Notes under the pieces: model-generated
What the model was told of the DNA's origin: nothing
Database searches by the model: none
The model's input: the letters and a program-made list of their open reading frames with translations, nothing else
Assembly (NCBI RefSeq): GCF_024643285.1
Contig: NZ_JAMSLW010000001.1
Location: 248,001 to 312,000, forward strand
Length of the DNA: 64,000 nt
Direction of reading: 5' to 3'
Origin: Parapedobacter lycopersici
GTDB lineage: Bacteria > Bacteroidota > Bacteroidia > Sphingobacteriales > Sphingobacteriaceae
Program-made: the position numbers and the translations under genes
Part shown: positions 43,315-47,289 of the stretch, in pieces
How the letters are laid out: each line of letters starts with the position of its first letter
How positions within the stretch are numbered: position 1 is the stretch's first letter

Positions 43315-43923
43315 TTAGTGATCATCGCCATGACCGGCGACTACGGGGTGCAGTTCAAACTTCAGGTCGAGGTCATTCGCGCCACCGAACCGGTTGTAGC
43401 CGGTGTTATTCCAGTCTGCCGCGGTGATACCAGCCTTGACACCTTCATTAAGGTGGCGTACAATGAAATTAAAGGTAAATCCATCGGACGCCTTTAGTAC
43501 ATGGATATATCCAGTTACCCCGACACGCGCATTATCCGGATCGGCGTAAACGTAATCGAGTACGCCGTCAGGGGCTCCCAATATGAACACCTGGTGCCGG
43601 TCGGCATCATTTAGAAACTCCTGTTGCATTTCCCGGTTCGCAAAATCATAAGCGGTCAGTGTCAGCCGGTATGTTTTGCCCTCCTCAACGTGCGCATGTG
43701 CACCTACCGGTGGCAGTCCCTTGTCGTCAAAAGTAATTTCGATGGGTTCGACACCCGTGACGACTTCGCCGTTTTCACCCGTTACTTCCACAAAGGTAAG
43801 TTTAGCTCCGTTCACCTCTTCCTGCGGAATTTCCGGTTGCGGGTCGTCCTTGCTGCACGCATTAATGCCCAACGTTCCGAGGGCCAAAAGGGCAATAATG
43901 ATCGTTTTTCTGTTGTTTTTCAT
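43315..43923 (-). CDS. Lipoprotein of the TonB-receptor-associated kind
   Basis: Protein of 202 residues with a lipoprotein signal (MKNNRKTIIIALLALGTLGI then NACSKDD, a Bacteroidota lipobox with an acidic follow-on). The body looks like a single beta-sandwich domain: HQVFI, ADPDNARVGVTGYIHV, FNFIVRHLNEGVKAG and a C-terminal FGGANDLDLKFEL. It resembles lipoproteins that often sit next to TonB receptors in this phylum. Histidines are conspicuous (GAHAHVEEG, LHPVVAGHGDDH), hinting at metal binding. The gap to the receptor gene is 40 bp. Confidence 0.75.
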   Translation of the reverse strand: MKNNRKTIIIALLALGTLGINACSKDDPQPEIPQEEVNGAKLTFVEVTGENGEVVTGVEPIEITFDDKGLPPVGAHAHVEEGKTYRLTLTAYDFANREMQQEFLNDADRHQVFILGAPDGVLDYVYADPDNARVGVTGYIHVLKASDGFTFNFIVRHLNEGVKAGITAADWNNTGYNRFGGANDLDLKFELHPVVAGHGDDH

Positions 43924-43963: not shown

Positions 43964-46291
43964 TTAAAAAAAGTAGGCCAGCTTCAGGCTCGTATTGCGT
44001 CCCATGTCATGACTGAAATACCGGAATCGGTTCATGTATTCTTTATAGGAACTGTTCAGTAAGTTGGTTACGGATAGCGTAAGGTCCAATGCATGTTTTC
44101 CCACATTTATGCGGGTCCCTCCATAAGCCGACAGCAACTGATAAGCGGGAGGGGGAGGTGCATAATCTGTGCCCGGTTCATAACGGGTTTGACGCCGCAC
44201 TACGCGGTGTCCCAACTTGATGTAACTATTGGTAAATTGGCCATGGACCGGTATTTCCCACCGGATATAATGATCGAGCCGGTCCGACGGAATATAAGGT
44301 AAGTACGTGTCCTGTTCCACATCCCGTGCCCGGATAATGGAGGCATCCAGTTGATAAGAAAGTCCCAAAGGAAAGCGATACTGGGCGGAGAGATCGGCTC
44401 CGAGAAATGTAGCATTCGTCTGTCCATACCGGAACACCGGAAACGTGCCCCGGATGCTCTGGATATATTCTCCTGCGGAGGGCTGGGCGTAGATATAATG
44501 GTTAATGTATTGGGCATATAGATCGAGGCTAAACGAAAAATGTTCCCCGGCATAAGATGGAGTGGTAATCCATTTGAAGCTACGTTCGCTGAGCAAATTC
44601 GGATCGCCGATCTCGTACAGTGCCGCACCATGGTGCAAACCATTGCTGTATAATTCATTGGCATTTGGTGATCGCCATGCCAATCCGACATTGCTGTGCA
44701 ATTGCCAGCCGTTACCCATCTTCAAAACGCCACCTAATGTTCCGCTGACATTATGAAATTGCCGATAACCGCCATAGAATTCAAGGTCGCTGTCGTAGCC
44801 CGCCGCATCAAATGTTTTAAAGTCGTACCGCACTCCGGCCTCCAGTTCATACCGTTCGCGGATGAACCGCTGGATTGCAAACAGCCCGGTAGAAAAACTG
44901 TCGTAATTCGGGATTAATGGTGTATTCAATGTTCCGGGAACATTATTATTCACCTGGAGGGAAAGATTGGTGCCAAATTGGCTTTGCCATCCTTTTCTTT
45001 GTGCCATCCGGTAGCTGGCATCCAGGGTTTGCGTGGTCAGTACCATATCCAGCATGGGTAGCGCGTCGCGGTCGCCGCGCCTGAGGTCGTATTCCTGCCG
45101 GTGATTCCGCTGGATGCCGTACTGAATGTCCAACGAGCCACCATTGACGTGATCGCGGTGCCATTTGAGCTTTCCGAGATCATGAACAACCGCCTGCCGC
45201 GGTGCAGCGATCGCATAGCTGAACGGATAATCCTCAAATGGGCGTCCGGCTTCCAGCCGCGCTTCAATATCCTCCATGCTTCCGATATGCGCACTAGTCA
45301 ATATTCCCAATGAGGTTTGAAAACGGCTGTAATAAGCCTCCAGTGAGGTTCTTCCTCTTGAGTATTGTAATGCCGCCGATACATTGGCTTCGCCCACACC
45401 GGTATTGCCCAGGTAATAGTCGGCCGTCTGAATGTTACCACCCCGCTTGACAGTGCCCTGAAGGCGCCAGCTTAATCCCTTTATTTGTTTAATTGCCGAT
45501 TGAAGCATGCCGGATACAACGCCCATCCGGCCATTGGTCTGATAAAGTGTGTGGATTTCACCTGATAAGTGCGGATCTACGGGAAGGGGGGGAGGTGAGG
45601 CAATAATGACCCCGCCAATGGCATCGGCTCCGTAACGAACGCCTTCCGCGCCCTTGATCACCTCAAAATCCTTTGCGATAAATGGGTCGATTTCGGGGGC
45701 ATGCTCGCTACCCCATTGCTGGCCTTCCTGGCGGATGCCGTTATTGAGTACCAGGATCCGGTTGCTATGCATGCCATTGATAACTGGTTTTGAAATTGTA
45801 CTGCCGGTTTGCAGCATGCTTACACCGGGGAGCACCCCAAGGTATTCCGCGAGGTTACCACCGCGGGCTTCGGCAATGGACTCACGTGAAAGGGCCTTTA
45901 CCGGATTGGCGGTGATGACACTTCTTCCATGTCCAACAACCTCCACATCATGTAGTTTAATGGTGCCGTGCTGGAGCGCAATGTTCAACCGGGTATCGCT
46001 TTGGGGTGTCAGTTGCATCGCTGCGCTTTCGAATCCGACACTGCTCGCGGTAACCTGATAGCTGGTGCCGCTGCACAGGTGTGAAAAATGAAAATAGCCA
46101 TGGGCATCGGAAATGGCCTGCAGCTCGCCCGGATCAACCTGTACGGTCACTTCCGATAGGGGCAATCCCGTGTCACTGTCGGTGACGCGGCCATTGACAG
46201 TTAACGTGCAGCCCTTGTGCTGGGCATAAACCAAGGAGCAAATGGCTGAAAACAATAGCGCAGTAATCCCTTTCCGTATGTATAGCGGCAT
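43964..46291 (-). CDS. TonB-dependent receptor with carboxypeptidase-like domain
   Basis: Outer-membrane active transporter of 775 residues. After a signal peptide (to YAQHKG) there is a carboxypeptidase-like regulatory domain at about residues 28-105 (VNGRVTDSDTGLPLSEVTVQV). The plug follows (VLNNGIRQEGQQWGSEHAPEIDPF and VIKGAEGVRYGADAIGGVI, each seen in part), then a 22-strand barrel ending in the aromatic SLKLAYFF. The plug sequence and the partner lipoprotein fit the ZnuD-like/metal or cobalamin receptors better than SusC. A strong inverted repeat overlaps its promoter region. Confidence 0.9.
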   Translation of the reverse strand: MPLYIRKGITALLFSAICSLVYAQHKGCTLTVNGRVTDSDTGLPLSEVTVQVDPGELQAISDAHGYFHFSHLCSGTSYQVTASSVGFESAAMQLTPQSDTRLNIALQHGTIKLHDVEVVGHGRSVITANPVKALSRESIAEARGGNLAEYLGVLPGVSMLQTGSTISKPVINGMHSNRILVLNNGIRQEGQQWGSEHAPEIDPFIAKDFEVIKGAEGVRYGADAIGGVIIASPPPLPVDPHLSGEIHTLYQTNGRMGVVSGMLQSAIKQIKGLSWRLQGTVKRGGNIQTADYYLGNTGVGEANVSAALQYSRGRTSLEAYYSRFQTSLGILTSAHIGSMEDIEARLEAGRPFEDYPFSYAIAAPRQAVVHDLGKLKWHRDHVNGGSLDIQYGIQRNHRQEYDLRRGDRDALPMLDMVLTTQTLDASYRMAQRKGWQSQFGTNLSLQVNNNVPGTLNTPLIPNYDSFSTGLFAIQRFIRERYELEAGVRYDFKTFDAAGYDSDLEFYGGYRQFHNVSGTLGGVLKMGNGWQLHSNVGLAWRSPNANELYSNGLHHGAALYEIGDPNLLSERSFKWITTPSYAGEHFSFSLDLYAQYINHYIYAQPSAGEYIQSIRGTFPVFRYGQTNATFLGADLSAQYRFPLGLSYQLDASIIRARDVEQDTYLPYIPSDRLDHYIRWEIPVHGQFTNSYIKLGHRVVRRQTRYEPGTDYAPPPPAYQLLSAYGGTRINVGKHALDLTLSVTNLLNSSYKEYMNRFRYFSHDMGRNTSLKLAYFF

Positions 46292-46351
46292 ATTTTTTTA
46301 TGTATGAGGTATGGAAAGTACATGCCTTTCCCTAACAGGTGGTAAAAATAC

Positions 46352-46392
46352 AATTTTGTTGCATTAATAAACAAATTAAATGCAACAAAATT
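46352..46392 (-). promoter_or_regulatory. 14-bp inverted repeat upstream of the TonB receptor
   Basis: AATTTTGTTGCATT (46352-46365) is the exact reverse complement of AATGCAACAAAATT (46379-46392), with a 13-nt AT-rich spacer. It lies in the 104-bp gap between xerD and the receptor gene and overlaps a weak minus-strand promoter (TTG, then TATTTTTA). The TTGTTGCA/TGCAACAA half-sites are suggestive of a Fur- or Zur-type metal regulator, but a terminator role for xerD is not excluded. Confidence 0.5.
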
Positions 46393-46395
46393 TCA

Positions 46396-47289
46396 TTATG
46401 ATCGTGGATGGTATTGGGTGATAACCGATTGCAGGTACTCTCGGTCGACATGTGTGTAAATCTCGGTGGTTGTGATGCTTTCGTGCCCGAGCATGTCCTG
46501 CACCGCACGAAGGTCGGCGCCGCCTTCAACCAGGTGACTGGCAAACGAGTGCCGGAAAGTGTGCGGACTGATCTGCTTTGTCAGACCTGTTTTTTTTGCC
46601 AGTTCCTTGATGATTAAAAAAATCATTACGCGGGTCAGGGGAGCTCCGCGTCGATTGAGGAAGACAAAATCCGTATTTTCCGGTTTAATGGACTGGTGTA
46701 CCCGCACTTCTTCCAAGTACATCCGGAGGTGTTTGACAGCCTGGGAGCCAATCGGAATCAAGCGTTCCTTGCTGCCTTTGCCCATTACTTTGATGAATTC
46801 CACATCGAGGAATAGATTGGAAACTTTAAGTCCGGTTAATTCACTGACCCGCAAACCGCAGCCGTACAATAATTCGAGCATGGCCCGGTTACGCATGCCC
46901 GCTGGTGTGGATCGGTCGATGGCGGATAGCAAGGCGTCAATCTCCGTAATATTCAGTACATCCGGTATTTTTCGCCCCAGCCGTGGTGCCTGGATAAGTG
47001 CTGTGGGATTTTGGATCAGCCCCAGCTCAATACTGAGAAAAAGGTAAAAGGTTTTAATGCCGGAAAGGATCCGGGCCTGGGTATAGGCCGATATCCCAAA
47101 CCCATTAATCCATTCAAGAAACGCCTGGATGTCTTTTGCGGTGATATCGGCAGGTAAAATCGCAGGGGTTTCGGCATATTGTCTTAATTTATGCACATCG
47201 CTCAGATAGGCCTCTATCGTATTTTGCGATAAGGCACGCTCCAATTGCAGGTATTCCTTAAATGCGTGTATTGAGGTTTCCCAGTCCAT
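46396..47289 (-). CDS. xerD: Tyrosine recombinase XerD
   Basis: Site-specific recombinase that resolves chromosome dimers at dif, together with XerC. The 297-residue protein has the SAM-like N-terminal domain (LSQNTIEAYLSDVHKLRQY) and all catalytic residues: Arg147 (CGLRVSEL), Lys171 (MGKGSKERLIP), His243 and Arg246 (SPHTFRHSFA), His269 (MLGHESI) and Tyr278 (EIYTHVD). No inverted-repeat-flanked element or phage genes are nearby, which supports a housekeeping role rather than an integrase. Confidence 0.92.
   Translation of the reverse strand: MDWETSIHAFKEYLQLERALSQNTIEAYLSDVHKLRQYAETPAILPADITAKDIQAFLEWINGFGISAYTQARILSGIKTFYLFLSIELGLIQNPTALIQAPRLGRKIPDVLNITEIDALLSAIDRSTPAGMRNRAMLELLYGCGLRVSELTGLKVSNLFLDVEFIKVMGKGSKERLIPIGSQAVKHLRMYLEEVRVHQSIKPENTDFVFLNRRGAPLTRVMIFLIIKELAKKTGLTKQISPHTFRHSFASHLVEGGADLRAVQDMLGHESITTTEIYTHVDREYLQSVITQYHPRS

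Follow-up and report, generated by a model that had tools for sequence, protein, structure and literature searches.

The window, by which we mean the whole 64,000-nucleotide stretch of Parapedobacter lycopersici DNA analysed here, carries a gene for a TonB-dependent receptor and, behind it, one for a partner lipoprotein, with xerD as the upstream neighbour (Table 1). Both xerD and the receptor gene lie on the minus strand. The receptor ATG is at 46291 and the xerD stop codon at 46396-46398, so the element described here occupies part of the gap between the two genes. An earlier reading, made from the letters alone (the sequence-only reading), had reported a perfect 14-bp inverted repeat with a 13-nt spacer, and it is present exactly where it was placed: the arms AATTTTGTTGCATT and AATGCAACAAAATT lie at 46352-46365 and 46379-46392, and they can be extended to 19 nt at 89% complementarity. 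The pattern TTTGTTGCATT-N8..20-AATGCAACAAA matched once in the window and never in 100 shuffles, while TTGTTGCA-N5..35-TGCAACAA matched a single place, reported on both strands, in the whole 3.62-Mb genome.

Table 1. Genes and sequence elements at the receptor locus (window coordinates)
Feature	Position	Strand	Description
Partner lipoprotein	43315..43923	-	202 aa; lipobox cysteine C23 by eye; predicted beta-sandwich; behind receptor
TonB-dependent receptor, ZnuD-like	43964..46291	-	775 aa; CarboxypepD_reg, Plug and barrel domains
Candidate -7 element TATTTTTA	46343..46350	-	Window sequence and alignment; consensus TAnnTTTG
Putative operator site B (promoter-proximal)	46349..46363	-	TGCAACAAAATTGTA, 12/14 to TGCAACWNTGYTGCA
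Inverted repeat	46352..46392	.	Two 14-bp arms around a 13-nt spacer; made up of the conserved halves that sites A and B share
Candidate -33 element TTTG	46372..46375	-	Window sequence and seven-locus alignment; Bacteroidetes-type promoter
Putative operator site A (upstream)	46381..46395	-	TGAAATTTTGTTGCA, 12/14 to TGCAACWNTGYTGCA
xerD	46396..47289	-	TIGR02225; upstream neighbour, same strand; outside the operon as read here

Two adjoining sites at a candidate promoter

Related loci showed that the right arm of the repeat is one half of a 15-bp 7-1-7 palindrome, TGCAACA-n-TGTTGyA. Two such 15-bp sites, A and B, are found in the window with their centres 32 bp apart, site A starting directly after the xerD stop codon. 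In the six named Parapedobacter relatives site A scores 10-12/14 and site B 9-12/14, and the 32-bp centre spacing is kept. Nearly complete copies, TGCAACAATGTTTGA and TGCAACAATGTTGTA, adjoin each other at a further locus (L097 in genome G038, genus g16). Judged from these comparisons, the repeat is better read as two adjoining 7-1-7 dimer sites than as one palindrome with a 13-nt spacer.

A different spacing was observed elsewhere: in 16 of 64 receptor-lipoprotein loci (14 named Sphingobacterium loci together with L182 and L184) the best site is accompanied, at a distance of 22 bp, by another scoring 9/14 or more. Both spacings are close to whole numbers of helical turns, which is suggestive only, because the loci are kin and the threshold is low. 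L182 is labelled Parapedobacter sp. SGR-10; its receptor is 41% identical, its sites are 22 bp apart and it has a small His-rich ORF. The genus label may be off, since the locus behaves like those of Sphingobacterium.

On the minus strand, TTTG-21 nt-TATTTTTA resembles the Bacteroidetes promoter consensus. Site B would cover part of the spacer between the candidate -33 and -7 elements and overlap the first two bases of TATTTTTA, a placement that fits repression.

Conservation upstream of receptor and lipoprotein genes

Relatives of the lipoprotein were detected in 39 of 121 family genomes, the source genome counted, and a close receptor-lipoprotein pair in seven of the nine genomes of the genus; in the lipoprotein search of these nine, G003 gave no match and G045 only a distant paralogue. 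When the window was aligned with the six named Parapedobacter relatives, the gap proved to be mostly diverged apart from one block, TTGCATTTAATTT...TTAA.GCAACA.TGTTGTATTTTTG, and the element before the receptor is kept in all seven loci. The block persists in P. tibetensis (L161), whose locus showed no upstream xerD, and in P. defluvii (L155), at a distance of 462 bp after xerD; it thus goes with the receptor and not with xerD.

For a wider comparison 68 loci were found and 64 scored (L220 was left out, L215 is without a receptor, and L195 and L214 are cut off). A site of at least 12/14 lies within 700 bp upstream in 42 of the 64, reaching 13/14 in 20, against 1.9% of 640 shuffles and 0/64 for the reversed motif; the other 22 are without a site of 12/14 or better. 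This score is partly circular, because the consensus was partly shaped on loci of the same families. A motif-independent dyad count is not circular, and in it GCA-N7-TGC ranks first (44 loci versus 11.8 expected); the next dyads (z about 9) may, at a guess, come from conserved xerD coding sequence. Start codons of related loci were chosen by script, making distances to the ATG approximate, above all for L156 and L157, and no start was found for L078, L085, L092 and L104. Among the 11 loci from outside Sphingobacteriaceae (L206, L208-L213 and L216-L219), six have a 12-13/14 site starting 17 bp before the receptor ATG and three a site 47 or 53 bp before it, while L211 and L216 are without a site.

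A small His-rich ORF with a GPP or like ending precedes the receptor in 31 of the 64 loci, and 16 of these 31 have their best site ending 18 to 26 bp ahead of the ORF. This small protein, whose last residues are NKGPP or similar, is found ahead of the receptor in other genera but not in the window. Two further observations concern the site itself. In two genomes (L144 and L145) TGCAACTATGTTGCA, exact or nearly so, occurs more than once in an intergenic region near a lipoprotein gene. At L138, L139, L152 and L230, mechanical ORF calls start inside the site (MQLCC.. or MQQCC.., from ATGCAAC), and the site may thus lead gene callers to annotate false starts.

Other genes marked by the motif

The sole one-mismatch match to TGCAACANTGTTGCA in the source genome lies upstream of a PAP2-ZIP zinc-transporter operon, and an 11-13/14 site precedes this operon in all nine genus genomes. 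With up to two mismatches there was no enrichment in the source genome (7 places versus 6 for the control), and a half-site search of the same genome returned 41 matches versus 38. Three exact half-sites occur elsewhere in it, two inside ORFs (L006 and L007) and one 66 bp before an ORF (L008) that we take, by eye, to be HAD-like. Across the genus, up to one mismatch gave five places versus three for the control, four of the five being inside ORFs, all except the ZIP site. Genus-wide, TGCAACWNTGTTKNA matched 12 times versus 5 for the control; six matches belong to the ZIP operon, five are inside ORFs, and the remaining one (L131) adjoins a gene of no evident zinc role.

A second lipoprotein gene, at C19:186204-186899 (L099), encodes a distant, His-rich protein of 235 aa and has two 12/14 sites directly upstream, TGCATCTTTGTGGCA and TGCAACTAAGATGCA, 24 bp apart; no receptor gene was found beside it within 8.2 kb. 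In two other genus genomes (L101 and, in reverse complement, L094) the paralogue is clustered with a small His-rich protein and a receptor. The L101 cluster adds a MerC-family protein and a FolE-like gene, and the L094 cluster a MerC-family protein and a COG0523-like GTPase gene, every label apart from MerC having been given by eye.

A search of the 121 family genomes for the exact motif returned 23 strand matches, which fall at 20 places in 17 genomes; the reversed control returned 4. Ten of the 20 places are by receptor, lipoprotein, small His-rich or Fur-family genes, seven are inside ORFs and three are unclear, with gene labels assigned mostly by eye and by family scans for some. Across the phylum, ATGCAACNNNGTTGCAT was found at 19 places in 15 of 395 genomes versus 2 control places. 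Gene context was read for 15 of the 19: four are by genes for a COG0523 GTPase, two by AztD-like, one by Fur-family and one by lipoprotein genes, five by genes without an evident part in zinc handling, and the remaining two fall within ORFs. At 7 of the 15 loci read the site thus adjoins COG0523/ZigA-type, AztD-like or Fur-family genes. The four COG0523 loci form two pairs, each from one genus; three were called by Pfam scan and the fourth by near-identity to the third. One COG0523 gene scored 551 bits against the NCBIfam ZigA model (cut-off 600), and the two AztD-like genes 66 and 93 bits (cut-off 400). A COG0523 search of the source genome gave one borderline match only. The expectation of the sequence-only reading that sites elsewhere would stand near metal genes is thereby borne out for ZIP transporter, COG0523/ZigA-type, AztD-like, ZnuD-like and Fur-family genes.

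The receptor and its partner lipoprotein

The closest solved structure to the receptor is ZnuD (E 1.3e-15), with heme receptors next at 6.6e-07 and weaker. NCBIfam models order the candidates differently: the heme model TIGR01785 scored best, at 133.7 bits (cut-off 316.85), above the ZnuD model NF038289 at 84.5 (cut-off 950), and the hemoglobin/transferrin/lactoferrin and copper receptor models also match below their NCBIfam cut-offs. On these scores the protein is classed as ZnuD-like rather than ZnuD. Its residues H197 and H553 align with H100 and H499, which are named as zinc ligands of ZnuD in the accessible part of PMC4557270 (chain positions 114 and 513 of ZnuD are 399 apart, as are 100 and 499). 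Both histidines are invariant in all 58 receptors compared, of which 55 have E and 3 have D at residue 196; these 58 come from a set of 65, seven having been dropped by a length filter after starts were chosen by script. E340 of ZnuD falls outside the aligned stretches of the receptor alignment.

The partner lipoprotein has no family match in Pfam or NCBIfam, and a profile search of the PDB gave a best E of 0.25. Its predicted fold is a beta-sandwich (mean pLDDT 88.9), which a fold search matched to common beta-sandwiches at middling scores (the highest Z was 8.3, over 107 residues) and to no specific solved relative; for a predicted model, such middling matches do not show that the fold is new. 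Residues H110, H157, D128, D184, E31 and E35 are among those invariant in 54 lipoprotein sequences, and the protein may capture zinc. The two His-rich stretches had been described as its ends. HPVVAGHGDDH is indeed the C-terminus, a tail that varies among relatives, but GAHAHVEEG lies inside the protein, around residue 75 of the 202.

Candidate regulators

Three Fur-family genes were found in the genome: L001, L002 and L003. By its NCBIfam scores L001, the strongest Fur-family member, looks like Fur. L002 (C1:789570) carries the Fur-family domain PF01475 (E 2.5e-10), and its best NCBIfam match is the Zur model NF008646 at 44 bits, with Fur second at 40.2; against a Zur cut-off of 167 bits, we call it a Zur-like candidate only. 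Orthologues of L002 are present in all nine genus genomes. No good site precedes its own gene, where the best match to TGCAACANTGTTGCA is 9/14. In G031, a small His-rich gene and the gene of an L002 relative (51% identity) point away from each other on either side of a perfect consensus site; NCBIfam gives this relative a higher score with the Fur model (38.5) than with the Zur model (27.2). Fur-family genes also stand directly behind the site in G047, G059 and G431. L002 is the likely repressor of the operon, with L003 (C12:55321-55602) as an alternative candidate. L003 follows what appears, by eye, to be a heavy-metal P-type ATPase gene, and its position suggests a second metal regulon.

Discussion

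We consider it highly probable that the repeat is a Zur-type operator repressing a zinc-uptake operon; from the sequence comparisons we infer binding, repression, zinc as co-repressor and the part played by L002. When zinc is sufficient, two Fur-family repressor dimers would bind the two adjoining 7-1-7 sites, about three helical turns apart, and the proximal dimer, between -33 and -7 of the receptor gene, would block transcription. When zinc is scarce, the repressor would be released and the ZnuD-like receptor and partner lipoprotein made, which together would bring zinc through the outer membrane. The PAP2-ZIP operon and the second lipoprotein gene in the genome would come under the same regulator. 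The suggestion of a metal-controlled uptake operon under a Fur-family regulator, with zinc or iron as the metal, is thus supported by comparison across loci, and of the two metals it is zinc that the comparison favours.

An iron operator, at which canonical Fur (L001) would bind the repeat and the receptor would import an iron or heme compound, seems to us improbable. The rank of L001 among the Fur-family members is in its favour, as are the heme model's lead in the receptor's NCBIfam scores and the preference of the G031 regulator for Fur; because the latter two count against zinc, our confidence in zinc is slightly lower, and in iron slightly higher, than it would otherwise be. Iron as the main signal is nevertheless made less likely by the genes beside the motif in the loci read (ZIP, COG0523/ZigA-type and AztD-like), by the receptor's structural kinship with ZnuD ahead of the heme receptors, and by the agreement of the motif with a predicted ZUR motif, the Fur motif given in the available portion of PMC545781 being GATAATGATnATCATTATC.

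We judged it very improbable that the repeat is an intrinsic terminator or 3' hairpin of xerD, and rejected this explanation. The repeat directly follows the xerD stop codon, its RNA in the window folds to -15.6 kcal/mol (z -3.67), and two of six relatives (L153 and L156) fold better than shuffles. However, no terminator-like site was found; all 14 pairs exist in the window only, the six relatives keeping 10, 10, 11, 13, 11 and 10, and four of them (L154, L155, L157 and L161) fold no better than shuffles. The element also occurs away from an adjoining xerD, in L161 and L155 as described above and before PAP2-ZIP, where the neighbour seen is not xerD. The possibility that the repeat acts only as a terminator of xerD, raised by the sequence-only reading against itself, consequently finds no support. 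An operator for a regulator from outside the Fur family that happens to govern zinc genes has the slightest probability of all, for 7-1-7 palindromes are described for Zur in PMC6103462 and Fur-family genes adjoin the site in G031, G047, G059 and G431.

The proposed Zur-type operator resembles known systems in several respects. As given in the accessible text of PMC545781, ATGCAACNNNGTTGCAT is a predicted ZUR site before znuABC-zur in two Desulfovibrio species, sharing the palindrome, the half-site and zinc-uptake targets with the present case. The Desulfovibrio example differs in belonging to another phylum, in its ABC-transporter target and in having one listed site per promoter. Zur boxes of the 7-1-7 kind are also mentioned in PMC6103462. 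On E. coli znuABC, according to the excerpt of PMC4219657, two Zur dimers occupy one promoter, as we infer here; linked to each other by salt bridges, they sit on adjacent faces of a single operator. In the present case the centre spacing is 32 bp for the window and its near relatives and 22 bp at 16 other loci. The E. coli Zur box also differs in sequence from the present motif.

The receptor shares kinship and two zinc-ligand histidine positions with neisserial ZnuD (4rdr; PMC4557270, in the part available), but scores far below the model cut-off and has an extra CarboxypepD_reg domain and a lipoprotein partner. XusA/XusB of B. thetaiotaomicron is likewise a TonB-dependent transporter working with a lipoprotein; as described in the available sections of PMC12574912, it takes up an iron-siderophore rather than zinc, and the likeness drawn here is one of function. 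The accessible parts of PMC11960050, PMC3087516, PMC8000910 and PMC12574912 contain no Zur box of Bacteroidota, and among the papers listed by our literature searches we recognised none describing one, although databases such as RegPrecise may hold one. Control of this kind is familiar, and its DNA code seems little studied in this bacterial group. With a motif that recurs in several families of the phylum and a tidy two-site layout, this probable operator, otherwise ordinary in kind, is what we regard as a sound lead from sequence comparison.

As a more tentative proposal, about which we remain rather doubtful, Sphingobacteriaceae and Cytophagales might share a Zur-like regulon with an operator code of its own, in which dimer sites would come in pairs spaced by whole helical turns (32 bp for the window and its near Parapedobacter relatives, 22 bp at many Sphingobacterium loci) and would govern an outer-membrane zinc machine of three parts. 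Its parts would be the small His-rich protein, the ZnuD-like receptor and the beta-sandwich His/Asp lipoprotein, the last capturing surface zinc and passing it to the receptor. If this is true, the zinc machine would be a counterpart of the lipoprotein-assisted siderophore systems. 

Under the main reading, that of a Zur-type operator, the motif can serve as a DNA signature by which zinc-starvation genes of Bacteroidota may be recognised. A likely function, zinc acquisition, is thereby attached to the small His-rich protein and to a lipoprotein family that Pfam and NCBIfam do not name.
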